Positions 17,829 through 45,786 of a stretch of 64,000 nucleotides of DNA are shown here, piece by piece. The notes under the pieces were generated by a model. The model did no database searches. It saw nothing but the letters and a program-made list of their open reading frames with translations, and was not told where the DNA came from. The stretch covers positions 124,001-188,000 of the forward strand of contig NZ_OY856306.1 in the NCBI RefSeq assembly GCF_963693435.1. The letters run 5' to 3'. A program made the translations under genes and the position numbers. Each line of letters begins with the position of its first letter. The first letter of the stretch is position 1. The DNA is from Pasteurella atlantica (GTDB taxonomy: Bacteria > Pseudomonadota > Gammaproteobacteria > Enterobacterales > Pasteurellaceae).

Positions 17829-19518
17829 ATGCAACCAGCAACCAGCAACCAGCAACCAGCAACCAGCAACCAGCAACCAGCAACCAGCAACCAGCAACCA
17901 GAACAGCATAGCTGTACAATCCTTTCTTAGCAACCTTGATAACACACTTTGGAACGCTGCCGACAAACTTCGCAATAATTTAGACGCTGCCAACTACAAA
18001 CATATCGTTCTCGGTTTTATCTTCCTAAAATACGTCTCCGACACCTTTACCGCCCACCAAGCCAAACTATTAACACAATTTCAAGATCCTAATGACGAGC
18101 TTTATTTAGATCCTGAATTTTTTGATGAATCAATGCAACAAAGCGAACTCAATCAGCGTGAATATTACACCAAAGATAATATTTTCTGGGTGCCTGAAAA
18201 AGCCCGTTGGGAGACCATAAAATCCCTGTGTAACACAAATATCGGTGATGAATTACCGTGGGGAAGCAAATTTAAAGGGGTAGCGTTACTGATTGATGAC
18301 GCTTTTGAAGCCATTGAACAAGAAAATCCCAAACTCAAAGGGGTATTGCAACGTATCGCCAGTTTTGGGGTGGCAGAGAACACGCTGATCGGCTTAGTTA
18401 ATACCTTTTCAGATACCAACTTTACCACGCCAACCCACAATGGCGAACCGATCCACCTACACGCCAAAGATATTCTCGGACACGTTTATGAATATTTTTT
18501 AGGACAATTTGCCCTTGCGGAAGGTAAAAAAGGCGGACAATATTTCACCCCAAAATCTATCGTAACCTTAATTGTTGAAATGCTCGAACCTTATCAAGGA
18601 CGCATTTACGACCCAGCAATGGGCAGTGGCGGATTTTTTGTATCAACCGATAAATTTATTCAATCCCACTCGGGCAACCGCAACGCCATTTCAATTTATG
18701 GGCAAGAATCCAACCCAACCACACGCAAATTAGCGGTAATGAATATGGCAATTCGTGGCATTGATTTTGACTTCGGCAATCGCAACGAAGACACCCTAAA
18801 AAATCCGTTACATATTGATAAAAAAATGGATTTCATAATGGCAAATCCACCTTTTAATATCAAAGAATGGTGGAGCGAAAGTTTGGCGGACGATCCACGC
18901 TGGAAATTTGGCACACCGCCAGAAAGCAACGCCAACTTTGCGTGGCTTCAACATATGATTTACCACCTATCCGAAAAAGGCAAAATGGCACTACTACTCG
19001 CCAACGGCTCAATGAGTAGCCAAACCAACAACGAGGGGGAAATCCGCAAAAATATCATTAACTCTGATTTGATTGATTGTATGGTTGCCTTACCGGGGCA
19101 ACTGTTCACCAACACCCAAATTCCAGCCTGTATCTGGTTTTTAAACAAAAATAAAACCCGCAAAGGCGAAGTGCTGTTTATTGACGCTCGCAATATCGGT
19201 TATATGAAAGACCGTGTACTACGAGATTTTTCTGATGACGATATCCAAAAAATCGCCGACACCTATCACAAATGGCAACAATCCACCGATTATGAAGATA
19301 TCGCAGGCTTTTGCAAATCTACCACATTAAACGACATTGCCGACAATAATTTTGTACTTACCGCAGGACGTTATGTTGGAGCGGAAGAAATCGAAGATGA
19401 CGGCATACCTTTTGCAGAAAAAATGCAAAATCTGACCGCTTGCTTGCGTAAACAATTTGCCCAAGGACAAGAGTTAGAACAACAAATCGAACAAAACTTA
19501 AAAAGTTTAGGGTTTTAA
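17829..19518 (+). CDS. hsdM: Type I restriction-modification methyltransferase subunit HsdM, phase OFF
   Basis: HsdM is the adenine methyltransferase subunit that works with HsdS to modify DNA. The coding frame runs from 17902 to 19518 (538 codons) and includes the N-terminal helical domain (FLSNLDNTLWNAADKLRNN; LGFIFLKYVSD), the SAM site YDPAMGSGGFF and the catalytic NPPF (18844). The start ATG at 17829 has GAGGA seven bases upstream but is one base out of frame because of ten CAACCAG repeats. The frame has no other ATG before 18133, and a stop at 17827 excludes an upstream start. With nine repeats the product would be 560 residues. An in-frame ATG at 18133 would give a product lacking the N-terminal domain. 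Confidence 0.93.
17832..17901 (+). repeat. Heptanucleotide repeat (CAACCAG)x10, phase-variation tract
   Basis: Ten perfect copies of CAACCAG directly follow the ATG at 17829. Seven is not a multiple of three, so gain or loss of one unit shifts the hsdM frame. With ten units, translation from 17829 ends at a stop at 17928-17930. With nine (or twelve, or six) units it would join the hsdM frame that begins at 17902. Confidence 0.95.
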
Positions 19519-19657: not shown

Positions 19658-21058
19658 ATGAGTAATTGGACAACTTATAAACTATGTGAAATAGGAAATA
19701 TATATACAGGGAAAACACCACCATCTAAAATTAGTAATGCTTTCTCAGATAATGGAGTTCCGTTTATTACCCCAAAAGATATGGATGGAAGAAGGGAAAT
19801 TTATTCAACTGAACGGTTTTTAACACTAGAAGGTATTCAATCAGTTGCTAGATATATAATGCCTAAAAATAGTATTGCTGTTTCTTGTATTGGCTCTGAT
19901 ATGGGAAAAACAATAATTATTCCTTGTAAAGCTGTAACAAATCAGCAAATAAATACAATTATTGTTAATGAAAAATTTAATCATAAATATATTTATTATA
20001 TTTTATCTACTAAACAAAATGAGTTTAAAAGTATAGCTAGTGGTTCAGCGACCCCTATTTTAAATAAAAAATATTTTGGCGAATATGAAGTTTCTATACC
20101 GAATAAAGATTATCAAGATTGGGTTGTAAATATTCTTGATAAGCTAGACCAAAAAATCCAACTCAACACCGAAACCAACCAAACCCTAGAAAATATCGCA
20201 CAAGCAATATTCAAAAGCTGGTTTATTGATTTTGACCCTGTACACACCAAAGCAAACGCACTCGCAAACGGCGACGATATCCAAACCGCCAACCGTAAAG
20301 CGATGATGACCCTATCAGGCAAAACAGACACCGAGCTTACCGAAATGGCACAACAATCCCCCACCGAATACGCCCAACTACACCAAACCGCCCAAGCCTT
20401 CCCAAGTGAATTTGGCGAAAATGGGTTGCCGTTAGGGTGGGAGATGAAACCTTTTGGAAACCTATTAGATAAAACGATTGGTGGAGATTGGGGAAAAGAA
20501 ATACCTGATGAAAAACATACAGAAAAAGTTGCTATATTTAGAGGAACTGATTTACCAAAAGTTTATGAGGGAGCAATAAATGATGTGCCTATTCGATATG
20601 TTGAAAATAAAAAATTACAGGCAAGAAGATTACAGCACGGAGATATAGTTATTGAAGTTTCAGGTGGAAGTAAAAATCAACCAACAGGTCGTTCATTATT
20701 AATTACAGAAAAATTATTATCACAATTTGAAATACCGATAGTACCTGCTAGTTTTTGTCGTTTGTTTAGACCCCAAACAGTGGAATTAGGTTATTTATCA
20801 TCTATTCATTTGCAAAATATCTATAAAGAAGGAAAAACGTGGGAATATCAAAATCAAAGTACAGGAATTAGTAATTTTCAAACTAAAATATTTCTAGAAA
20901 AAGAACTTGTTACTATTCCCCCAAATGAAATTTTAGAAAAATTTCATAATATTATTGTTTCAATTTTAGATAAAAGATATAGTACAGAAAACAAACTCTT
21001 ACAAGAAATAAGAGATATATTATTACCTAAATTAGTGAGTGGAGAGATTGAGGTATGA
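19658..21058 (+). CDS. hsdS: Type I restriction-modification specificity subunit HsdS
   Basis: HsdS gives the system its DNA target. The 466-residue protein has a first target-recognition domain (about residues 1-160), a conserved helical spacer (LDQKIQLNTETNQTLENI; AIFKSWFIDFDPVHTK), a second recognition domain starting at LPLGWEMKPFG, and a C-terminal helix (EIRDILLPKLVSGEI). The recognition domains are very AT-rich while the spacer uses C-rich codons like hsdM, a mosaic typical of swapped specificity domains. The stop overlaps the gajA start in ATGA. Confidence 0.95.
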   Translation: MSNWTTYKLCEIGNIYTGKTPPSKISNAFSDNGVPFITPKDMDGRREIYSTERFLTLEGIQSVARYIMPKNSIAVSCIGSDMGKTIIIPCKAVTNQQINTIIVNEKFNHKYIYYILSTKQNEFKSIASGSATPILNKKYFGEYEVSIPNKDYQDWVVNILDKLDQKIQLNTETNQTLENIAQAIFKSWFIDFDPVHTKANALANGDDIQTANRKAMMTLSGKTDTELTEMAQQSPTEYAQLHQTAQAFPSEFGENGLPLGWEMKPFGNLLDKTIGGDWGKEIPDEKHTEKVAIFRGTDLPKVYEGAINDVPIRYVENKKLQARRLQHGDIVIEVSGGSKNQPTGRSLLITEKLLSQFEIPIVPASFCRLFRPQTVELGYLSSIHLQNIYKEGKTWEYQNQSTGISNFQTKIFLEKELVTIPPNEILEKFHNIIVSILDKRYSTENKLLQEIRDILLPKLVSGEIEV

Positions 21059-22806
21059 AGTTAAAAAAATTAATAATAAAAAATTTTCGTAATTTTGAAG
21101 ATTGCTCTATAGATTTATCAAATAAAAATTTGATCTTTGGAATGAATGATGTTGGTAAAAGTAATTTAATTTATGCATTAAGAGTTTTGTTTGAACAAAA
21201 AATTAGAAATACCAATTTACAAGTTACCGATTTTCATAAACAAAATACAAATAATAATATTGAAATATCATGTTTATTTGATATATCTGATGATTCAGAG
21301 TATAGCCAACTTCTTATTGCTAAAGCTGAATCTGCTTCCATATCTGATGATAAGTTATTTAAAATTTCATTATTAGCAGAATGGAATAATGGAGAACCAA
21401 TTATTGATTTACAATGGGGAACAGAAACTGAACCAATGATAAATATTCCATCAAGAGGTGTTAGTCGAAGTCTTTTAGATGATATTTTTCATTGTATATT
21501 TATACCTTCACAGAATAATATTAACTCAAGTTTTAAAAACTTTAAAAAAGAATTATTATCTACACATGAAGCAACAAGTTCAGATAAACAAATTCTAAAG
21601 AGTATATCGAATGCTAATCAGGATATTAATACTGAGATTTCTACTCTCTCTAGTGTTCAAAAAATGGAGGAGGGGATTAACGAAGTACTTTCATTATTCG
21701 ATCAAGATTACCAAGTAAAAATATCACCCAATCATACTTTTGGAGATTTGCATAATAACCTTGAACTATACATGCGTGATAATAATAGCTCAGATGTTTA
21801 TCCAACATCAGGAGATGGTCGTGTTAGAAAAGTAATGTATGCTCTTATTAACTACTTATTACAAAATGGAAAAGATTCACAAAGGAAAATTCCAATTTTA
21901 TTGATCGAAGAACCTGAAAATCACTTATTTTTATCTGCTCAGATTGAACTATCAAAAACAATTTTTAGTGAAGAATTTTCTCTTTTTTTATTTTTAACAA
22001 CTCATTCTCCACAATTATTTTTTAGAATTAGTGATGATGCTAATTTAATTAGATTACATAAAGAAAATAATGATATTAGCACGAAATCAGAATATCTAAT
22101 TGTTCCTGATGAATATAAAAAATCAAAGAATATATTATTAGAAAACTTAGCTCAGTGTTTATTTGTAGATAAAGTTTTACTTGTTGAGGGAGAATCTGAA
22201 AAACTTTTATTTGAATGGGTACTTGATAGTTTAGGAAAAGATAGGCAAAGAATTCTTATTCAACCTATTTTAGGTGTTCATTTTGAGAAGTATGTAAAAA
22301 TACTAGTTGGTTTAGGCATTAAAGTATTAATAAAAACAGATAATGATATTAAAAGAAATCGAAAATCTAAAAATAGTGATGTAATAACATATAGTCCAAT
22401 AGGATATAATCGATGTATTAATATTCTTAATATTATAAGCGATAATCCAATAGAAAAGATTGATTCAGATGAAAAAGAACCTGAAGAACTTAGACATTAT
22501 ATTCGTAAATGTTATTCAAATGAGATTAAAATTTTAAAAAATAAAGGAATTTATCTGTCAGAAGTAGATTTAGAAAATGATTTAGCTGATAGTTTAGAAT
22601 TAAGTAATAAGAATAAATTTATAGAATGGCTTCAAGAAAAAAAATGGCAGAATATGTGGAGTTTTATAAACTTAAATCACAATGAAATTAAAGAAGAAAT
22701 ATATACTGAGTTAAAGCTCATAAATGATTCAGGCAATGATATTGCTCAAAAAATTTATGATAGTGAGGCTTTCATTTGCTTAAAAGCACTGAATAATGAG
22801 GTATAA
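21055..22806 (+). CDS. gajA: Gabija-type protein GajA: ATPase with TOPRIM nuclease (OLD family)
   Basis: The 583-residue protein has an ABC-type ATPase domain: Walker A GMNDVGKSN (residues 29-37) and Walker B LIEEPENHL (283-291), followed by the TTHSPQ block. A TOPRIM nuclease domain comes next, with Glu378 in LLVEGESEK and Asp429/Asp431 in KTDND. This arrangement and size match class 2 OLD nucleases. A helicase gene directly downstream makes it a Gabija pair: GajA is a nucleotide-sensing DNA nuclease that defends against phage. It overlaps hsdS by four bases and is far more AT-rich than hsdM, suggesting it was inserted into the restriction operon. Confidence 0.88.
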   Translation: MKLKKLIIKNFRNFEDCSIDLSNKNLIFGMNDVGKSNLIYALRVLFEQKIRNTNLQVTDFHKQNTNNNIEISCLFDISDDSEYSQLLIAKAESASISDDKLFKISLLAEWNNGEPIIDLQWGTETEPMINIPSRGVSRSLLDDIFHCIFIPSQNNINSSFKNFKKELLSTHEATSSDKQILKSISNANQDINTEISTLSSVQKMEEGINEVLSLFDQDYQVKISPNHTFGDLHNNLELYMRDNNSSDVYPTSGDGRVRKVMYALINYLLQNGKDSQRKIPILLIEEPENHLFLSAQIELSKTIFSEEFSLFLFLTTHSPQLFFRISDDANLIRLHKENNDISTKSEYLIVPDEYKKSKNILLENLAQCLFVDKVLLVEGESEKLLFEWVLDSLGKDRQRILIQPILGVHFEKYVKILVGLGIKVLIKTDNDIKRNRKSKNSDVITYSPIGYNRCINILNIISDNPIEKIDSDEKEPEELRHYIRKCYSNEIKILKNKGIYLSEVDLENDLADSLELSNKNKFIEWLQEKKWQNMWSFINLNHNEIKEEIYTELKLINDSGNDIAQKIYDSEAFICLKALNNEV

Positions 22807-22809
22807 ATA

Positions 22810-24174
22810 ATGTTTAAGTTAACTGATGAACAAAATGCTATTATTAACCCTGAAAAATGGAGTTCAGCAATAATTGTTGCTAAAGCAGGCTCAGGAAAGA
22901 CAACAACAATTATTCAAAGAGCTATTAATCAATCAGAGGTAATAATAGATTGGAAAAGTATTGCAATTATTAGTTTTACCAATAAAAGTGTTGAAGATAT
23001 TAGAAAAAAACTAAAATTTTCAAATGCTAAAAATATTATCTCTATGACTTTTCACTCTTTTTTAATGCATCATATTCTTTCATTTAGACCATTATTTAGA
23101 AATAAAAATATATCTTTTGATTTTGATAGAAAAGTATCTAATTTAAAAGAGTGGGTTAATTATGTTAATACTAATAATAAAATACCTGTATCAAAAGATC
23201 CTAAAAAAGATTATTTATTAGAAGGTGCATTATTGGCTCTTAAACAATATCCTTATATACAAAAATATTTAAAGTACAAATTTACTGCAATATATATTGA
23301 TGAGGCACAAGATAATAATAAACTACAATATGATATTGTTAAAATATTACTTGATTTAGACATTCAAGTTGTACTAGTTGGAGATGAAAATCAAACTATT
23401 TACCAGTTTAGAGGAGCAAGTGCAGATGCTTTTTTAAAAATGAAAGAGCATCCTAAATTTCAAGATAATATTTACCACTTAACTAAAAATTTTAGATGTC
23501 ATGAATTAATTGATTTTTGTGCGAATAGTTATACGGTTCCTACAGAACAAAATACAGATGAGAATAAGAATGGAATATATGCTTGTAAACAAACTGAACT
23601 AACTAAAATAGTTAGTTATTTTGAAAGAAAAAAAGAAGGTATATGTTTTTTATTTAGAGGAATTAAGGGACAAAATAATGAGAGTAATAGACAAATAATT
23701 AATAATTATGGATTACCAATTATTACATTACCTGATATTATCGTCAAAAGTAACAACCCACAACCATTAACTTTACTATTTCATATGTTCTTTGGCTCTT
23801 TTAAAGAAGAGTTAGATTTTATAGAGTATGTATTTCCCAATTTACCAAATCAGCAGGCAAAGAAAATAATAAAAGACTTAAAATATACTCCTAGTGCAGA
23901 AACTTTAACTCAATTAAATAAATATGCACTGATATATGAAGAAAAAGATTTTGATGAAATTCTGAATGTATTTCAGAATGATGAGGCTCGACAGTTTTAT
24001 ACTTTAGATTCTATAAAAAACTTTGCGATGACGATTCATTCTGCAAAAGGCTTAGAATTTAAAAATGTAATTGTTATGTCTAGAGATTTTAATAATTTAA
24101 ATTATGACAATAGCAAAGAATTATTTTATGTTGCTTGTACTAGAGCTAAAGAAAAATTAATTTTTATAAACTGA
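22810..24174 (+). CDS. gajB: Gabija-type protein GajB: UvrD-like helicase
   Basis: The 454-residue superfamily 1 helicase has a Walker A motif AKAGSGKT (24-31), Walker B YIDEAQD (162-168), motif III GDENQTIYQFRGA, TKNFR, TIHSAKGLEF and the C-terminal motif VI VACTRAKEKLIF. It is shorter than UvrD or Rep (about 700 residues), as is normal for GajB. It starts three bases after gajA. In Gabija, GajB joins GajA in a complex and is thought to be triggered by DNA ends or nucleotide depletion; here this is by homology and context. Confidence 0.86.
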   Translation: MFKLTDEQNAIINPEKWSSAIIVAKAGSGKTTTIIQRAINQSEVIIDWKSIAIISFTNKSVEDIRKKLKFSNAKNIISMTFHSFLMHHILSFRPLFRNKNISFDFDRKVSNLKEWVNYVNTNNKIPVSKDPKKDYLLEGALLALKQYPYIQKYLKYKFTAIYIDEAQDNNKLQYDIVKILLDLDIQVVLVGDENQTIYQFRGASADAFLKMKEHPKFQDNIYHLTKNFRCHELIDFCANSYTVPTEQNTDENKNGIYACKQTELTKIVSYFERKKEGICFLFRGIKGQNNESNRQIINNYGLPIITLPDIIVKSNNPQPLTLLFHMFFGSFKEELDFIEYVFPNLPNQQAKKIIKDLKYTPSAETLTQLNKYALIYEEKDFDEILNVFQNDEARQFYTLDSIKNFAMTIHSAKGLEFKNVIVMSRDFNNLNYDNSKELFYVACTRAKEKLIFIN

Positions 24175-24181
24175 TTATACT

Positions 24182-25177
24182 ATGCAAAAACCCCCTTTTG
24201 AAATAACCAACATTGCCCTTAATCTCGCAATCCAAATATCCGAGAAAATCGGACGTTTGCAGGCAGATTATGATAAGCAGTTGCATTTGCGAAAAAATAA
24301 CCGCTTACGCTCAATTCAAGCGTCACTGGCGATTGAAAATAACTCAATGAGCCTTGAACAAGTTACCGATATTATCAATGGTAAACGTGTTTTAGGCGAG
24401 CCGAAAGACATTCAAGAAGTGAAAAATGCCTATGAGGCGTATGAAAAAATATTGCGTTTCTCGCCTTACTCAGTGAAAGATTTTCTTACTGCTCATCGTT
24501 TAATGACACAAGGTTTGATCAAAGATGCAGGAAAATTCCGTTTGGGCGATGTGGGGATTTTTAACCATAAAGGGGACGTTATTCATATGGGGGCAAGACC
24601 TGAATTTGTCCCTAAATTAGTAAAAGATTTATTTGCTTGGGCAAAAAATGATGATACGCCTGCGTTAATTAAAAGTTGCGTAATCCATTATGAATTAGAA
24701 CTTATCCACCCTTTTGCAGACGGCAATGGGCGAATGGGACGCTTGTGGCAAAATGTGTTATTGAGCCAAAGTAACCCTGTGTTTGCGTGGCTACCGATTG
24801 AAACGATCGTGTATGAACATCAAGATGAATATTATGCAACATTAAGACAAGCCGATAAAACAAGCAGTGCAACAGTATTCATTGAATTTATGCTTTCTAT
24901 CATTTTGAAAACCATTCAGTCTTACCCTGAAAAACAAATGAGCGATATAGTGAGCGATATAATGAGCGATAAATTTTCACTTCCTGAAAAAGAGGCTTAC
25001 TCAAAAATTATTCATTATTTAGAAAGCAATACAACGATCAGCAACCAACAAGCTCAACAGTTATTGAAAAAATCCGCCCCAACTGTAAGACGTTATTTGA
25101 ATAAATTTGTGCTTAATGATTTGTTAAATGCAAGGGGGGAGAATAAAGCGAGGGTGTATTTTAAAAGTGAGATATAA
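24182..25177 (+). CDS. Fic family protein with self-inhibitory motif
   Basis: The 331-residue protein has the Fic active site HPFADGNGRMGR (residues 176-187), which normally transfers AMP or another nucleotide part to a target protein. Near the N-terminus, S48-LAI-E52-N53 fits the inhibitory (S/T)xxxE(G/N) helix of class II Fic proteins. A C-terminal region (about 270-331) resembles a winged helix (TISNQQAQQLLKKSAPTVRRYL). The gene lies between gajB and hsdR in one direction. Fic genes recur inside type I restriction operons, but their role there is not settled. Confidence 0.88.
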   Translation: MQKPPFEITNIALNLAIQISEKIGRLQADYDKQLHLRKNNRLRSIQASLAIENNSMSLEQVTDIINGKRVLGEPKDIQEVKNAYEAYEKILRFSPYSVKDFLTAHRLMTQGLIKDAGKFRLGDVGIFNHKGDVIHMGARPEFVPKLVKDLFAWAKNDDTPALIKSCVIHYELELIHPFADGNGRMGRLWQNVLLSQSNPVFAWLPIETIVYEHQDEYYATLRQADKTSSATVFIEFMLSIILKTIQSYPEKQMSDIVSDIMSDKFSLPEKEAYSKIIHYLESNTTISNQQAQQLLKKSAPTVRRYLNKFVLNDLLNARGENKARVYFKSEI

Positions 25178-25279
25178 AAACCACACCGATACAAAATCCC
25201 CATTTTCTATTGGTGTTGATTGTTTTTTATTAAACAAGCGGTCAATTCCCCACAAAAATTTACAAAAACAGGACAGATT

Positions 25280-28200
25280 ATGAAACTAAACACACCGATA
25301 AATGAAGATCTTATTGAGCAAATGGCGATTAAACAATTAAAAATGCTCGGTTGGGGGTATCAATATGGTAAGGATATTCCGATTGATGAGCAGTTATCCA
25401 TTGACGGTGCGTGGCGTTCTCGTGGGTCGCAGGTGGTATTTAAGCCGTTGTTGAAGCAAGCGTTGCTACGTTTAAATTCGGATATTCCTGAGCCTGTGAT
25501 TGAAGAAGTGGTGCAGAAAATTTGCTTTTCCGATAGTAGTGATTTAGCGTTACAAAATCAGATGGCTTATGGCTGGCTGCGTAATGGGGTGGCGGTGAGC
25601 TATCAAAAAGAGGGCGAGCAAATCAGTGATGTGGTGCGTTTGATTGATTTTCAAGATGTAGCGAATAATGATTTTTTAGTGGTCAATCAATTAACTATTG
25701 CGGGGCGAAAAGGCAATCGCCGTCCTGATGTCATCGCTTATATTAACGGCTTGCCGATTGTGGTGTTTGAGTTGAAAAATCCTCTTATCGAAGAAGCGGA
25801 TATTAGCAAGGCATATTCTCAGTTACAAACCTATAAAGATGAAATTACGGATCTGTTTATTTTTAATCAGGTTTTGGTGATCTCGGATCACACCCAAGCA
25901 CGAGTAGGATCGGTTACGGCGGATTTTGATCGTTTTACACCGTGGCGAGTGGTGGACGAAAAGCAGAACAGTGTGCGAGTACAGTTTGAAAATGAATTAG
26001 AAAGTTTGCTCAATGGTTTATTCTCGCCTGAGATTTTGTTGGATTATATCCAAAATTTTACGGTGTTTGAGAAGAATGAAAAAGGAAAAATCATCAAAAA
26101 AATCGCCGCTTATCATCAATATTATGGGGTGAATGAGGCAGTGCAATCCACTGAAATTGCGATCAAGGGGAATAAAAAAATCGGTGTGGTGTGGCATACC
26201 CAAGGCAGTGGCAAATCTTTATCAATGCTGTTTTATACGGGCAAAGTGTTATCTCAAAAAGTGTTAGGTAATCCGACCATTGTGGTGGTCACAGATCGTA
26301 ATGATCTTGATGGTCAATTATTTAAAACCTTTGACGAAGGGAAGGCGATTTTAAAACAAACACCGATCCAAGCTAAAAATAGCGAGGAATTACGTCTAGA
26401 ACTTGCCAAACGAGAAGCGGGCGGTGTGATTTTTACCACTATTCAAAAATTTGGGTTAAGCGATGAAGAAGAAAGCCACCCTGTTTTAAATTCTCGCTCG
26501 AATATTATTGTGATTACCGATGAAGCCCATCGCTCGCAATATGGCTTTAATCAAAAAATTAACGCACAAGGGCAATATCGTGCAGGCTTTGCCAAACATT
26601 TACGCAGTGCCTTGCCGAATGCGTCTTTTTTAGGTTTTACAGGGACGCCGATTGAAATGGAAGATCGTGATACGCAAGAAGTTTTTGGAAAATATGTGTC
26701 GATTTATGATTTTCAAGACGCGGTGGAAGACGGTGCGACAGTACCGATTATTTATGAGGCACGTCAAATCAGTTTAAATGAAAGCAACGAGTTTGATCGC
26801 TTGATGAGAGAGGCAAGGGATTTGCTTGATGATGAGGATAGTCCTGAATTTCGCTTGCGTGAAAAACTGATGGGGACGGACGAGCGTTTGGATAAATTAG
26901 CGAATGATTTTATTCATCATTTTTCAGAGCGTAATGCAGTCTTTGAGGGTAAGGCAATGTTAGTGGCGATGAGCCGTGATATTTGTGTAAAACTTTATCA
27001 AAAAATAACCGCTTTACGCCCTGAATGGCACAGTGAAGATGTTAATCAAGGGGCGATTAAAATTGTAATGACCAGTAATGCCAGTGATCCACAGGCGTGG
27101 CAGATCCATAATCAAGATAAGAAAGTGTTAGAAAAACGCTTTAAAGATCCTGATGATCCGTTAAAAGTGGTGATTGTGCGTGATATGTGGCTCACAGGAT
27201 TTGACGCACCTTGTTGCCATACAATGTATATAGACAAGCCGATGAAAGGGCATAATTTAATGCAGGCGATCGCAAGGGTAAACCGTGTGTTTCGTAATAA
27301 AAGCCGTGAGAATGGTGGATTGATCGTGGATTATGTAGGGCTGACGGAAGAATTGCGAGAAGCAACCGCAAATTATACTAATGCAAACGGCAAAGGCTCG
27401 GTTAAGCAGGATATTGACGCTATTTTTGACAAAATGTGTGAGTATATTTCTATTATTCGTGGGCAATTTGCAAGCGTGGTGGACGGTAAAAAATTCAGCC
27501 TTGATGATGTGTTAAAAATCACAAATCCACCGCAATTATTGACGGAAATTCTAAATGGTGCAAACCATATTGTTGGGTTAGATCGTGTTAATTCATCGCC
27601 AAATGATCCAAATAAAAAAGAGGCAACACCACGCAAAAAAGCCTTTTTAGAGGCGGTACGATTAGCCAAAAAAGGGCTTTCTTTATGCGGTGCATTGCCC
27701 CAAGCCACACCTTATAAACAAGAACTTGCGTTTTATGACGCTGTGCGAGCAACCATTATCAAAAACAGTGCCACTAAAGATCCGAAAACAGGTAAAAATG
27801 AACAGCAATTAAAATTAGTCTCCTTGATCAACCAAGCGGTTACTTCTGATGGTGTGGTGGATCTTTTTGATTTACTCGAACAAGAACGTCCAAATATCAA
27901 CTTGTTATCCGATGAGTTTTTAGATGTGATCCGCCAAAGCCCGACCAAAGATTTGTGGACGTCTGCGATTGAGCGTTATTTGAAATCTAAAATCAATGAA
28001 TTGAGCGGTGCGAATTTAACTACTAAAGCGGATTTTGAGCAACGTTTAAAAGAAGCGATGAATCAATATCACAACCATAATTTATCGGTGTTAAATATAA
28101 TTGAAGAACTGATCGGCTTGGCGAAAGAATTTGATGAACAAAGCAAACGTGGGCAAAAATTAGGATTAAGCGAGGCAGAATTAGCTTTTTATGACGCCCT

Positions 28201-28444
28201 TGCTAAAAATGACAGTGCCAAAGAGCTAATGGGTGATTTAACCTTAATCAAACTGGCACGAGAAATTACCGATAAACTACGAAAATCCGCTACCATCGAC
28301 TGGCAATATAAAGAAGGCGTAAAAGCCAAAATGCGAATTTTAGTGCGTCGAATGCTGATGATTTATAAATATCCCCCAGATAAACAGGAGGACGCAATTA
28401 AATATGTATTAGAACAGGCAGAGGCGATTGCGGAGATGCTTTAA
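25280..28444 (+). CDS. hsdR: Type I restriction endonuclease subunit HsdR
   Basis: HsdR cuts and translocates unmodified DNA as part of the HsdR-M-S complex. The 1054-residue protein has an N-terminal PD-(D/E)XK nuclease site (Asp150 in RRPDVIAY, Glu164 and Lys166 in FELKN). The helicase motor follows with Walker A TQGSGKS (307-313), DEAH (about 414-417), GFTGTPIE and ARVNRVFRNK. A long C-terminal helical region completes it. I chose the ATG at 25280, with AGGA before it, over a TTG at 25220. An uptake signal lies at 25236 between fic and hsdR. Last gene of the defence operon. Confidence 0.96.
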   Translation: MKLNTPINEDLIEQMAIKQLKMLGWGYQYGKDIPIDEQLSIDGAWRSRGSQVVFKPLLKQALLRLNSDIPEPVIEEVVQKICFSDSSDLALQNQMAYGWLRNGVAVSYQKEGEQISDVVRLIDFQDVANNDFLVVNQLTIAGRKGNRRPDVIAYINGLPIVVFELKNPLIEEADISKAYSQLQTYKDEITDLFIFNQVLVISDHTQARVGSVTADFDRFTPWRVVDEKQNSVRVQFENELESLLNGLFSPEILLDYIQNFTVFEKNEKGKIIKKIAAYHQYYGVNEAVQSTEIAIKGNKKIGVVWHTQGSGKSLSMLFYTGKVLSQKVLGNPTIVVVTDRNDLDGQLFKTFDEGKAILKQTPIQAKNSEELRLELAKREAGGVIFTTIQKFGLSDEEESHPVLNSRSNIIVITDEAHRSQYGFNQKINAQGQYRAGFAKHLRSALPNASFLGFTGTPIEMEDRDTQEVFGKYVSIYDFQDAVEDGATVPIIYEARQISLNESNEFDRLMREARDLLDDEDSPEFRLREKLMGTDERLDKLANDFIHHFSERNAVFEGKAMLVAMSRDICVKLYQKITALRPEWHSEDVNQGAIKIVMTSNASDPQAWQIHNQDKKVLEKRFKDPDDPLKVVIVRDMWLTGFDAPCCHTMYIDKPMKGHNLMQAIARVNRVFRNKSRENGGLIVDYVGLTEELREATANYTNANGKGSVKQDIDAIFDKMCEYISIIRGQFASVVDGKKFSLDDVLKITNPPQLLTEILNGANHIVGLDRVNSSPNDPNKKEATPRKKAFLEAVRLAKKGLSLCGALPQATPYKQELAFYDAVRATIIKNSATKDPKTGKNEQQLKLVSLINQAVTSDGVVDLFDLLEQERPNINLLSDEFLDVIRQSPTKDLWTSAIERYLKSKINELSGANLTTKADFEQRLKEAMNQYHNHNLSVLNIIEELIGLAKEFDEQSKRGQKLGLSEAELAFYDALAKNDSAKELMGDLTLIKLAREITDKLRKSATIDWQYKEGVKAKMRILVRRMLMIYKYPPDKQEDAIKYVLEQAEAIAEML

Positions 28445-35212: not shown

Positions 35213-35533
35213 GTTGATTGGAATTAAATAAATTACATAACATGAGACAAAAAAGATCTTAATGGTGATTTGTTGATGAAGAGGGGGGGGAATTAAACTT
35301 CTTTTTAGAGTCAGGAAGTTCTGTAACTGCATTGGTGAGAGAGTTGGTTTTGGCTGACTAAAAAAGAAATACACATGCACACTGAATATTGGAAAGAGGG
35401 AGACGTTTATGGTAAGGTTAAAAATAACGGTAAGATAGTTATAGTTTTTGCTCAAATTTAATTGCTAAAAGAGACTATAAAAATAACTGTGTATCTGCTT
35501 TAATATACAAAAAACATTAAGGTGGATACCAAT
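35213..35533. other. Gap without a full gene: truD tail and IS256 left end
   Basis: Contains the decayed truD tail (35269-35361), a 28-codon open frame (35375-35461, starting MHTEYWKEGDVYGKVKNN) that could be the remnant of a larger gene, and the left end of the IS256-family element at 35471. Confidence 0.6.
35269..35361 (+). pseudogene. Decayed copy of the truD 3' end (copy A)
   Basis: Starts TTTGTTGATGAAGA and ends in the truD stop region (GAGAGAGTTGGTTTTGGCTG). A run of eight G at 35283-35290 and point changes break the frame relative to truD. It shares several variant bases with copy B and not with truD, so A and B have a common origin. Confidence 0.85.
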
Positions 35534-36086
35534 ATGAAAAAAGCAAATTTAACCAACCAAATCGATGCTCTACTTGAGCAACTAGATTCTCAAGAAGATA
35601 TCGCAAATGCGACTCAGCTATTGCACAAACGTTTCTTTGAGAAATCTCTCAATGCTGAATTAGATGCACATCTAGGCTATCAAAAGAATGGCACACGTAA
35701 AGGAAGTAACGCTAGAAATGGCGTTACAACCAAAACAGTATATTCTGAAGAAGGGAAGTTCTCTATCGATACGCCACGTGATAGAGAGGGAACTTTTGAG
35801 CCTGAAATTATCAAAAAACGACAAACAAGAGTGCCTACACTAGACTCAAAAATTATCTATTTATATTCACAAGGAATGAGTACCCGTGAAATCACTGAAA
35901 CCGTGTCAGACCTGTATGGGACTGAAGTCTCACCTACACTGGTATCACGTGTGACAGATGCTCTATTAGATGATGTTATAGAGTGGCAATCTCGCCCCCT
36001 TGATGAGGTCTATCCTATTGTTTATTTAGACTGCATTGTTGTTAAAGTCCGTCAAGATAAACGTGTGATTAACAAGGCTATTTACC

Positions 36087-37306
36087 CAGGGCAAGATCAT
36101 TTTAAATTGAACTAAATACTATTTTTACGATCAGATCAGTAACAAATGTAAAAAAGGTTTACTGATATGACAAATAATTTTATTACTCACTTTTCAATTA
36201 TCAAAGATCCTAGAATTGAACGATGTAAAAAGCATGCACTTATAGATATTTTATTTCTATCTATCTGTGCAGTCCTATCTGGTGCAGAAGGTTGGGAAGA
36301 TATAGAAGACTTCGGTCACGTAAAACTAGACTGGTTGAGACGTTATTTACCTTTTCATAATGGAATTCCTAAACATGATACTATAGCAAGGGTAATGAGT
36401 CGCTTAGAACCTGAAGCTATTCAAACTTGTTTTATCAATTGGGTTAAAGAACTCATAACAGAAGTAGATGGAGAAATTATTGCCATTGATGGAAAAAGTG
36501 CAAGAGGCAGTTTTTCTACAAAAAATAGAAAAGATAGTCTACATATGGTTAGTGCTTGGAGTTGTGAAAATGGCTTAGTGTTAGGACAACAAAAAGTAGA
36601 GGGTAAATCAAATGAAATTACAGCAATCCCTAAACTATTAGATTTACTTGATGTAAAAGGAGCCACTATTACACTTGATGCAATGGGATGTCAGCATGCT
36701 ATTATCAATAAGATTCATTCTAAAGGTGCGGATTATGTGGTGTCATTAAAAGGTAATCAAGGACAGTTAAATAAAGAAGTTAAGGCTTGGTTTCACAAAT
36801 GTCATAGAGAACAGTTTGCAAATGTTGGTCATTCTATTTATGAGCATATTACTAGTGGTCATGGACGAATAGAAGAGCGAAGATGTATTCAATTAGAAAT
36901 TGATAAAAATTGGCTTACAGAACATAAAAAATGGGCGAATATCCAAACCGTAATTTGTATAGAAGCTAAATGCCATATTGGTGAAAAAGTGACAATAGAA
37001 AACCGTTATTATATAAGTTCTCTTAGCCTTAATGCAGAAAGATTAAATAGTATTATTCGTAATCATTGGGCGATAGAAAATAGCTTACACTGGACTTTAG
37101 ATATGACTTTCCATGAAGATAATTCAAGGATTAGGCGAGGGAATGCAGCTGAGGTAATGAATGCTTTTAGAAAACTAGCATTAAATATTGTTAAAACTGA
37201 TACAACTCGTAAAGCAAGTATGAAACGTAAGCTAAAAATGGCTGCATTGGATGATAATTTTAGAGCTCAATTACTTCTAAATATAAATTAAAATGCTCTT
37301 GCCCTG
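36087..37306 (+). mobile_element. Intact ISAs1-family insertion sequence, copy 2
   Basis: Same 1220-base length, ends and encoded protein as copy 1 at 10702-11921. It sits inside the IS256-family transposase gene and is flanked by the perfect 10-base duplication GCTATTTACC (36077-36086 and 37307-37316). Confidence 0.96.
36167..37291 (+). CDS. ISAs1-family DDE transposase, copy 2
   Basis: The 374-residue product is identical in every residue to the transposase at 10782-11906, so neither copy has had time to diverge. The intact ends and frame suggest it can still move. Confidence 0.95.
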   Translation: MTNNFITHFSIIKDPRIERCKKHALIDILFLSICAVLSGAEGWEDIEDFGHVKLDWLRRYLPFHNGIPKHDTIARVMSRLEPEAIQTCFINWVKELITEVDGEIIAIDGKSARGSFSTKNRKDSLHMVSAWSCENGLVLGQQKVEGKSNEITAIPKLLDLLDVKGATITLDAMGCQHAIINKIHSKGADYVVSLKGNQGQLNKEVKAWFHKCHREQFANVGHSIYEHITSGHGRIEERRCIQLEIDKNWLTEHKKWANIQTVICIEAKCHIGEKVTIENRYYISSLSLNAERLNSIIRNHWAIENSLHWTLDMTFHEDNSRIRRGNAAEVMNAFRKLALNIVKTDTTRKASMKRKLKMAALDDNFRAQLLLNIN

Positions 37307-38051
37307 GCTATTTACCTTGCCTTAGGCATTAATATGCAAGGACAAAAGGAGCTTTTAGGCTTGTGGATGTCTGAAAATGAAGGGGCTAAATTTTGGTTAG
37401 GCGTACTGACTGAATTACAAAATAGAGGTGTAAAAGACATCCTTATTGCTTGTGTAGATGGTTTAACGGGCTTTCCTGATGCGATTAATGCCGTTTATCC
37501 AAAAACCAAAATCCAGCTTTGTATTGTCCATATGGTGCGTAATTCAATGAAATATGTACCTTATAAGGATTATAAAGCGGTAGCTCGAGATTTAAAGAAA
37601 ATTTATCAATCCGCAACGGAAGATGAAGCCTTACAGGAACTAGAGAATTTTGCGAATACTTATGATGATAAATATCCGCAAATATCACGGTCTTGGTATA
37701 AACACTGGGATAAGCTGAATACCTTGTTTAACTACCCTGAGGATATAAGAAAAGCCATTTATACGACTAATGCTATTGAGTCTGTAAATAGTGTTATTCG
37801 CAAAGTCATCAATAAGAGAAAATTATTCCCAACGGATGACTCTGCGAAAAAAGTCGTTTATCTGGCTATTCAAAATGCCTCTAAAAAATGGACAATGCCA
37901 ATTAGAGACTGGAAATTAGCACTCAATAAGTTTATGATTGAGTTTGATGATCGCTTAGCTGATTATCTTTAACTAAAAAGTGCAGTTACACAGTTTAAGA
38001 GACAGTCTCTGCTAAAAGCACTCACTGAACTTATAAAAATAAGGACGTATA

Positions 38052-43100: not shown

Positions 43101-43116
43101 TGTGATATATATCACA
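43101..43116 (+). promoter_or_regulatory. CRP-binding site upstream of the adhesin gene
   Basis: TGTGA-TATATA-TCACA is a perfect CRP palindrome 130 bases before the adhesin ATG. It suggests catabolite control of the adhesin in addition to phase variation. No clear promoter hexamers at a fixed distance were found. Confidence 0.7.
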
Positions 43117-43245
43117 AAAATCAAAAAATCATCCCTAAAATGTAAAAAAATCATCCTTTTCTATGCCCTCAATCAAATGTATATTTTTTGGCAGGCCAAT
43201 CTTTATCCAAAACTATATAAATCAACTAATATAATGGGGTGTTTT

Positions 43246-45786
43246 ATGAAAAACCATACATACATACATACATACATACATACATACATACATACATACA
43301 TACATACATACAAAAAATCTTCTCTTTGCTTGGCTATAGGGTTAGCCCTCGCCTCTTGTCAGGTTTATGCAGCTCCTACTGATTTTCAAGATGGTTATGT
43401 GGGGCATTATAATGATACCTGTAACGGTAAAATACCCGATACCACTTTTGTTAAAGTATTGCTCGGTCAAGGAGCGATGGTAAATACAGATCCTAATAAT
43501 CCAAACAGTGATGATTGTCGTCCTAATAATGTGGTTGCAGTTGGTCACAATGCTATTGTAGGAGCAGATAACACCATTGCCATTGGACATAATGCTCAAG
43601 CAACGAAACGGGAATTTGGTCCAGAGCCAACAAGTGCTATTGCAATTGGACGAGATGCTCATTCTATGGGTATTAATTCATTAGCAGTTGGTGCAGGGGC
43701 AAAAGTCATTGGTGATCATTCGATGGCATTTACAACCTTTAATCCACTTCCTGAAAATATACCTCAAAATGCTAAACCAGAAGATATTATGAAAGGAAAT
43801 AACAGTATTGTAATGAGTACAAATTCTGCTCAGAGAAATATTGTGAATGCAAATATGGCAACACTTATTGGTGGTGTAAATAATAAAATTGATGGTGGCA
43901 CTTATGGTGCTATTTTAGGAGGAGAAAATAATTATGTTGCAGGAGAATATGCTTTAGCATTTGGTAAAAATAATATTGCACAGGGAAAACATTCCTTGAT
44001 GGTTGGTTTAGATAATAACAAAAGTCATCGAGATGGGATTGAAAGTAATAGTAATAAAGCAACATCAGATGGCTATGTTGCAATAGGTAAACAAAATGAA
44101 GTAGATGGCTGGTATGCTTTTGGGTTAGGCGAAGAAAACCACTCCTATGGGTTTAATTCAACAGCATTGGGATATCGTAATAAAGCCATTGGTGATGGTT
44201 CAATTGCAATGGGGGGCTATAACGATAAACAACCTGATCAAACCTATAAATTTATTGATGGTGCTCAAGCACTTTCAAAAGGAGCAATTGCAATAGGTGC
44301 GGGAACAATAGCTGGTTTCGCCGATAAATCTGCATCAGAAGATATTGTTCGGCAATGGCGACAAGGTACTGAAGAAGCCGTTGCTATTGGTTATAGATCA
44401 AAAGCAGTGGCAAATAAAACAATTGCCTTAGGTTTTGATGCTGAAGCGAATATTCAAGGTGGAATTGCATTAGGATCATACGCAAAAGCCATAGGAATGC
44501 CGGGTACTAAAGGAATAGATGTAAGTGGTAGAAATGGAGCAGATGATACAGCAACTTGGAAATCTACATTAGGTGCATTAGCAATTGGTGATACTGACGG
44601 TACAAATAAATACACAAGACAAATTACAGGACTAGCGGCAGGTACAAATGATACTGATGCGGTTAACGTTGCCCAATTAAGACAAGCGGTGACATTACCT
44701 ACTATCAGTTTTTATAATGGTGGTTCTTTAAATGGAGCAAACTATACGCAAGGAACGAATATCAATCTTTCTAGTCTTGCTTTTGATTTTGGTGATGGCT
44801 TAAAAGTTCAAAAAACAACAAAAGACGGTAAAGATATTGCCTTAGTCACATTAGATAAAGATGCACTTAAAAATGATCCTAATTTTAAGGGAGATAAAGG
44901 GGACAAAGGAGAAAAAGGTGATCAAGGTATTCAGGGGCTGAAAGGTCCTAAAGGAGATACTGGAGCAAAAGGTGACAAAGGCGACCAAGGTATTCAAGGT
45001 CCTAAAGGAGACACTGGGGCAAAAGGTGACAAAGGCGACCAAGGTATTCAAGGGCTGAAAGGTCCTAAAGGGGATACTGGTGCCAAAGGAGAGAAAGGCG
45101 ACCAAGGTATTCAAGGTCTAAAAGGTCCTAAAGGGGACACTGGTGCCAAAGGAGAGAAAGGCGATCAAGGTATTCAAGGTCTAAAAGGTCCTAAAGGGGA
45201 CACTGGTGCCAAAGGAGAGAAAGGCGATCAAGGTATTCAAGGTCTGAAAGGTCCTAAAGGGGATACTGGTGCCAAAGGAGATAAAGGCGACCGAGGTATC
45301 CAAGGAGATAAAGGTGATCAAGGTATCCAAAGCCCTAAAGGTAGCCATACTAATAATAGTGCAGCAATACCAAATAGTAAATTTGATCAGCTAAATATTG
45401 GTAATGTGATTATGAAGAAAACAGATACTGGTAAGATCACTATCAATATGGGGAAAAATCAAATTCACGGTGTAGCTAACGGTACCGCCCCGACGGATGC
45501 TGTTAATGTTTCTCAACTTAATGAAGTCAAAAATACGATTAACAATGTTGAAAAACAAGCTAATAAAGGTATTGCTGGCTCAATGGCAGTAGCAGGTTTA
45601 CCACAAGCTTATTTACCGGGTAAAAATATGGTTGCTGTTGCAGGCTCAAACTACAAAGGAGCGAATGCTATAGCAATAGGTATTTCAACAATTTCTAATG
45701 ATGGAAAATGGATTATTAAAGGTTCGCTTAATTCAACATCTGGTGGAAGCGTTGGTACAACATTAGGTGCTGGTTATCAATGGTAA
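43246..45786 (+). CDS. Trimeric autotransporter adhesin (YadA type) with collagen-like stalk, phase ON
   Basis: The 846-residue protein has an extended signal peptide (CATA-encoded HTYI repeats, then a hydrophobic core ending about CQVYA). A YadA-like head follows with many AIAIG/NNIAIGxxA repeats, then a neck (AAGTNDTDAVNVAQLRQAV). A collagen-like stalk of 49 Gly-X-Y triplets spans about residues 549-695. A second neck (TAPTDAVNVSQLNEV) leads to the C-terminal YadA anchor ending GTTLGAGYQW, which forms the outer-membrane pore. The ATG at 43246 has GGGG upstream. The protein likely mediates adhesion. Confidence 0.93.
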   Translation: MKNHTYIHTYIHTYIHTYIHTYKKSSLCLAIGLALASCQVYAAPTDFQDGYVGHYNDTCNGKIPDTTFVKVLLGQGAMVNTDPNNPNSDDCRPNNVVAVGHNAIVGADNTIAIGHNAQATKREFGPEPTSAIAIGRDAHSMGINSLAVGAGAKVIGDHSMAFTTFNPLPENIPQNAKPEDIMKGNNSIVMSTNSAQRNIVNANMATLIGGVNNKIDGGTYGAILGGENNYVAGEYALAFGKNNIAQGKHSLMVGLDNNKSHRDGIESNSNKATSDGYVAIGKQNEVDGWYAFGLGEENHSYGFNSTALGYRNKAIGDGSIAMGGYNDKQPDQTYKFIDGAQALSKGAIAIGAGTIAGFADKSASEDIVRQWRQGTEEAVAIGYRSKAVANKTIALGFDAEANIQGGIALGSYAKAIGMPGTKGIDVSGRNGADDTATWKSTLGALAIGDTDGTNKYTRQITGLAAGTNDTDAVNVAQLRQAVTLPTISFYNGGSLNGANYTQGTNINLSSLAFDFGDGLKVQKTTKDGKDIALVTLDKDALKNDPNFKGDKGDKGEKGDQGIQGLKGPKGDTGAKGDKGDQGIQGPKGDTGAKGDKGDQGIQGLKGPKGDTGAKGEKGDQGIQGLKGPKGDTGAKGEKGDQGIQGLKGPKGDTGAKGEKGDQGIQGLKGPKGDTGAKGDKGDRGIQGDKGDQGIQSPKGSHTNNSAAIPNSKFDQLNIGNVIMKKTDTGKITINMGKNQIHGVANGTAPTDAVNVSQLNEVKNTINNVEKQANKGIAGSMAVAGLPQAYLPGKNMVAVAGSNYKGANAIAIGISTISNDGKWIIKGSLNSTSGGSVGTTLGAGYQW
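43255..43310 (+). repeat. Tetranucleotide repeat (CATA)x14 inside the adhesin signal peptide
   Basis: Fourteen CATA units start nine bases after the ATG at 43246 and encode repeats of HTYI. Fourteen units keep the ATG in frame with the rest of the gene, so this sequence is in the ON state. Gain or loss of one unit would shift the frame. Confidence 0.95.
44890..45330 (+). repeat. Collagen-like Gly-X-Y repeat region
   Basis: 49 uninterrupted Gly-X-Y triplets, mostly built from a 63-base unit encoding GxKGDQGIQGLKGPKGDT followed by GAK. Lys and Asp are common at X and Y, favouring a salt-bridged triple helix without hydroxyproline. Near-identical DNA units allow length change by recombination. 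Confidence 0.9.

Follow-up and report, generated by a model that had tools for sequence, protein, structure and literature searches.

A Gabija gene pair between hsdS and hsdR of a type I restriction-modification operon in Pasteurella atlantica

Gene content of the operon and the hsdM repeat tract

The window, a stretch of 64,000 nucleotides of P. atlantica contig NZ_OY856306.1, carries the gene order lgt-hsdM-hsdS-gajA-gajB-fic-hsdR-surE, with every gene on the + strand (Table 1). A preliminary description had proposed a Gabija pair nested within a type I restriction operon and translationally coupled to hsdS. The order hsdM-hsdS-gajA-gajB-fic-hsdR bears out the nesting, and both gaj reading frames are exact. 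The junction is also as described, in that the hsdS stop and the gajA start overlap as ATGA (21055-21058); coupling across it is what we infer from this overlap. Only 3 bases separate gajA from gajB, and 7 separate gajB from fic. GC content is 25.5% in gajA and 25.1% in gajB, compared to 41.8% in hsdM, 32.5% in hsdS, and 40.2% in hsdR. For hsdR, the most likely start predicted from the sequence is ATG 25281, just past the point where DNA shared with a congener (G001) resumes.

Table 1. Features of the operon in window coordinates
Feature	Position	Strand	Remarks
hsdM	17830..19518	+	N6_Mtase Pfam 8e-121; open body from 18133
hsdS, specificity subunit	19658..21058	+	3' codons GGA-GAG near 21044-21049, putative gajA ribosome-binding site
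gajA, OLD-type ATPase-TOPRIM nuclease of Gabija	21055..22806	+	583 aa; exact ORF
gajB, UvrD-like SF1 helicase/NTPase of Gabija	22810..24174	+	454 aa; exact ORF
fic, class II-type Fic protein	24182..25177	+	C-terminal HTH; HPFADGNGR; N-terminal SLAIEN inhibitory-like motif
hsdR, EcoR124 HsdR relative	25220..28444	+	likely true start ATG 25281
Variable block vs congener G001	21050..25231	.	gajA-gajB-fic here; SIR2-like gene in G001

The hsdM start had previously been placed at 18133, which had to be revised: the ATG lies at 17830, preceded by GAGG, and is followed by ten perfect copies of CAACCAG (17832-17901) that shift the frame. With ten repeats, as sequenced, hsdM is out of frame and encodes a 33-aa product, while 9 or 12 copies would restore the frame and yield 560 or 567 aa. 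The hsdM of G001 has 27 repeats, is in frame, and encodes 602 aa, and of the 18 other relatives, 10 have different repeats, with units of 4, 5 or 7 bases, 5' of hsdM. Because repeat copy number sets the hsdM reading frame, the restriction-modification (R-M) system is, judged from its sequence, phase-variable and OFF as deposited. Elsewhere in the window, a YadA-like collagen-repeat autotransporter ORF (43102-45786) contains a (CATA)14.5 tract at 43255-43312 and is probably phase-variable as well. An IS256-type transposase gene (35522-37972) is interrupted by an ISAs1-type transposase gene (36167-37291).

Assignment of the pair to Gabija

GajA matched the solved Bacillus cereus GajA over its full length (phmmer, 4.6e-84), and its predicted structure (pLDDT 82) recovered the same protein in Foldseek with an E-value of 2.2e-47 and a TM-score of 0.83. 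In that search, 14 Gabija GajA chains ranked first, followed by OLD (TM 0.50) and retron Eco8. PADLOC profiles scored GajA at 525 bits for GajA, 118 for Old, and 82 for AriA; the retron Eco8 profile stayed below its cut-off (59 vs 250 bits). The partner protein scored 292 bits with the GajB profile and was nearer to GajB (3.8e-30) than to the UvrD/Rep/PcrA group (PcrA, 9.4e-19) among proteins in the PDB; GajB chains were the top three Foldseek matches to its model.

The expected active-site features are likewise present. In GajA, an ABC-type ATPase and an OLD-type TOPRIM domain together span the full length, with Walker A K35, TOPRIM E378/E382, D429/D431, D505, and K530 in columns that are invariant or nearly so across 18 homologues; the Walker A and the Glu378 with Asp429/Asp431 named in the preliminary description are thus all found and conserved. 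K35, H317, E378, D505, and K530 align with B. cereus K35, H320, E379, D511, and K541, the residues mutated in that protein (PMC8136825), and all five are kept; D429/D431 correspond to B. cereus D432/D434. The SF1 helicase motifs attributed to GajB were all located in the 454-aa protein (AGSGKT, IDEAQD, GDENQTIYQFRG, TIHSAKGLEF, and VACTRAKEKL), and this UvrD-type gene is directly adjacent to gajA.

The assignment would have failed had the proteins grouped with another OLD-nuclease and UvrD pair, such as OLD class 2, PARIS AriA, or the retron Eco8 effector. These share the AAA-TOPRIM plus SF1 architecture and give weak profile matches, but the GajA profile scores more than four times higher over the full length, none of the PARIS, retron Eco8, or OLD profiles is the best match, and the fold is far closer to GajA than to OLD. 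Such a placement is therefore extremely improbable. Since profiles, solved proteins, and fold searches all favour GajA and GajB, the pair can be securely assigned to bona fide Gabija at the level of sequence and predicted fold. It resembles the B. cereus VD045 system (PDB 8jq9, 8sm3, 8jqb) in having both proteins, in the full-length match, in the catalytic residues, and in the order gajA-gajB; it differs in an identity of only ~30%, in a shorter GajB (about 494 aa in VD045), and in its location inside a type I R-M operon.

A hypervariable slot behind hsdS

Comparison with G001 delimits the cargo. HsdM and HsdR are 98.7% and 96.6% identical to their G001 counterparts at the protein level, whereas HsdS is only 39% identical, and a SIR2-like gene takes the place of gajA-gajB-fic. 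The shared DNA breaks off at GGAGAG near the end of hsdS (about 21044-21049) and restarts at 25232, before hsdR. Because hsdM and hsdR are 94-96% identical to G001 in DNA, compared to 77-79% for the core genes flanking at lgt and surE, we conclude that the locus moves horizontally between species. Nearly all related genomes with the operon (about 20) carry a different AT-rich ORF immediately 3' of hsdS. These first ORFs, mostly of 26-32% GC, include a ThsB-like TIR protein, three FRG proteins, one Abi_C protein, and, by eye, HEPN-like proteins; an AlbA/Schlafen-type protein and an Abi_2 protein are placed further along in two slots. With such differing non-hsd genes between hsdS and hsdR, Gabija is, on comparative sequence evidence, one of the occupants of a hypervariable slot that takes up cargo and is of a known kind, and its earlier description as cargo stands. 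The greater AT-richness of gajAB relative to hsdM and hsdS is also real, but it does not single out Gabija, as the first cargo ORF has 26-35% GC in every relative; AT-richness was accordingly dropped as a sign of foreign Gabija DNA.

Accessory genes in hsd loci have precedents. The E. coli prrC gene sits in the type IC hsd locus of EcoprrI, which PrrC guards (PMC3874165; PMC12707154); like gajAB it is an accessory defence gene within an hsd operon, but the R-M enzyme holds PrrC, an anticodon nuclease acting on tRNA, whereas Gabija is a stand-alone DNA-targeting pair. In enteropathogenic E. coli, the whole DarTG2 system lies between hsdS and hsdR at a proposed recombination hotspot; it differs in being a toxin-antitoxin system with an RptR repressor, and the excerpted account mentions no phase-variable repeat tract (PMC12255303). 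Variable rlo/mlo genes between hsdR and hsdS in Campylobacter jejuni are described as intervening ORFs, among which Gabija is not named in the excerpted source (PMC5183652, citing Miller 2005). Among the papers searched, none named Gabija as part of an hsd operon; a preprint that deals with genetically embedded defences (Payne 2024) may list such cases.

The end of hsdS itself may serve the cargo. HsdS has a conserved C-terminus, LLPKLL-S/N-G-E, whose GGR-GAR codons lie a few bases 5' of the cargo start at most loci, and in most relatives the start of the cargo overlaps the end of hsdS or lies right next to it. The terminal glycine codon is GGA or GGG in the window and in all 18 relatives in which the motif was found; GGR accounts for 55% of glycine codons elsewhere in hsdS and for 27% in the HsdM/HsdR alignments, and none of 65 conserved glycine columns is GGR throughout. 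The penultimate HsdM codon, where hsdM meets hsdS, ranks third highest among these 65 columns. As the sequences are related and the counts not independent, the bias is suggestive and no probability is attached to it. The last hsdS codons thus probably double as the ribosome-binding site of the cargo, a new point; alternatively, they might have been inherited for coupling to hsdR and not selected for cargo. A search for an internal promoter before gajA was uninformative (52 promoter-like sites vs 49.3 in shuffles).

An uptake-signal element at 25234 lies at the right edge of the variable block in the window. Uptake signals were rejected as general recombination edges, with cores 5' of hsdR in 4 of 20 loci vs about 2 expected. 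Across the window, uptake-signal-like 32-bp elements (ACAAGCGGT...AAATTT) occur at 25234, 28533, 41723, and 52906, where 0.08 would be expected by chance. These elements and the gene order suggest a Pasteurellaceae-like host.

Gabija in other genomes and the proposed role of the embedded pair

An alignment-based scan found 80 GajA relatives in named genomes; a single-protein query against the genome contigs gave no match. No close GajA relative was present among 100 related genomes, plasmid searches returned no useful close DNA relatives, and the four plasmid records with GajA matches that were examined all carried gajAB on its own. The closest full-length GajA, from Alysiella crassa (57%), lies near hsdRSM with other genes in between, and Moraxella catarrhalis Z7574 has a broken gajA copy (up to 60%) beside an apparent type III R-M pair. 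Exact nesting was seen in one Desulfobacteraceae genome (hsdM-hsdS-gajA-gajB-hsdR) and in Streptococcus ovis (hsdR-gajA-gajB-hsdS-x-hsdM), and gajA immediately follows hsdS or hsdR in S. danieliae and a Ruminococcus contig. In the tree, five sequences of this kind, including that of the window, fall at five separate places, all forced by well-supported branches, so embedding is recurrent and independent. At least three separate entries of Gabija into hsd operons have taken place, a further new point. An hsd or fic gene is nearby in 13 of 85 Gabija loci, a count from which no enrichment is claimed as a matched background is absent. In the DNA examined around the other 72, neither was detected; Gabija therefore does not need R-M.

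Taken together, the pair very probably makes up a complete Gabija system, which occupies the hsdS-hsdR slot of a phase-variable type I R-M operon as exchangeable cargo. Its family identity, intact catalytic residues, overlap with hsdS, replacement in relatives by unrelated, mostly defence-like genes, and the out-of-frame hsdM tract form the basis of this reading. Ribosomes ending hsdS would start again at gajA, with the hsdS-encoded GGAGAG serving as their binding site, and GajA and GajB would thereby be made together with the specificity subunit. Published work describes Gabija as a 4:4 complex (PMC10822852) with a nuclease that nucleotides hold back (PMC8136825); according to a preprint that disputes the nucleotide-depletion model, it acts on DNA lacking RecBCD (PMC12407980). 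By analogy with Bacillus and Pseudomonas, a GajA4-GajB4 complex would attack phage DNA as a nucleotide-checked nuclease that RecBCD keeps off self DNA. The least certain part, which we put forward tentatively, is that Gabija serves as a second line behind restriction when a phage blocks HsdMSR or RecBCD, or when repeat slippage turns hsdM off. Ocr, an inhibitor of type I R-M, is reported to trigger Gabija (review, PMC10286901). Phages that block restriction or RecBCD would be exposed to Gabija, so gajAB behind hsdS could act as a guard, much like PrrC in EcoprrI; we do not claim that Gabija and HsdMSR touch directly. When hsdM is off, gajAB might stay on through its own start and translation along with hsdS, or polarity might silence it, in which case it would be no backup.

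A broader proposal, which we regard as somewhat unlikely, is that the hsdS 3' end is an evolved socket. GGR-GAR would be kept for any plug-in, HsdS and its backup would be exchanged together downstream of phase-variable hsdM, and Gabija would be one plug-in, punishing phages that disable restriction. A competitor to a functional tie is passive hitch-hiking, in which gajAB came by chance into a recombination-prone gap of a mobile hsd locus with no functional or regulatory link to restriction. The interspecies movement of hsdM and hsdR is in keeping with this, as are the general clustering of defence genes and the lack of a nearby hsd gene in most gajAB relatives. Cargo abutting or overlapping hsdS in most relatives, hsdS codons positioned as a ribosome-binding site, and the repeated appearance of exact nesting in distant phyla, with hsd genes of different families, speak against it, and we give it roughly one chance in three. 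Both the socket and the guard ideas are unproven, testable proposals derived from sequence.

The history of the operon bears a comparable uncertainty. The preliminary description envisaged insertion of gajAB between hsdS and hsdR; its cargo status holds, but a discrete entry into a prior hsdMS-fic-hsdR operon is not supported, as no such allele was found among the relatives compared, hsdS differs, and fic occurs free of hsd in a second congener. In that congener (G002), fic lies alone between lgt and surE with 81% DNA identity to the window fic, a divergence similar to that of the flanking core genes (81.7-83.5%). The operon might thus be a recent composite and not an old unit, with hsdMS-gajAB and hsdR having entered on either side of a resident fic. 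This would require two insertions exactly at both fic edges; moreover, family members often have a Fic gene close to other type I hsdR genes, so G002 may be a remnant after hsd loss, and G001 retains a short fic-like stretch before hsdR. On balance we consider a resident fic plausible but the less favoured history. The P. atlantica genome itself contains another type I hsdR, which has a Fic gene about 3 kb away (G000:C1:2126268 and 2129736), and hsdR-Fic pairs similar to it occur in G030, G038, G040, and G057. A 12-bp repeat, AATGAGCGATAT, is present in fic (24937-24971), just before hsdR in G001 (L051 11591), and before fic in G002 (L072 3342); it is possible that it is a scar of earlier fic copies.

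Type I R-M loci collect accessory defence genes in the interval from hsdS to hsdR. Gabija and the restriction operon are both of known kinds, and their shared slot suggests that restriction operons are sockets for interchangeable backup defences. The about 20 related operons, with conserved hsdM and hsdR and differing plug-ins, and the independent Gabija embeddings in distant phyla make the translational-socket idea testable, and likewise the idea that embedded systems protect restriction from phage inhibitors. Slot ORFs of no assigned family in the relatives (those without a Pfam match in the L052-L070 set, e.g., L056, L057, L059, L060, and L067) are good candidates for undescribed defence genes.
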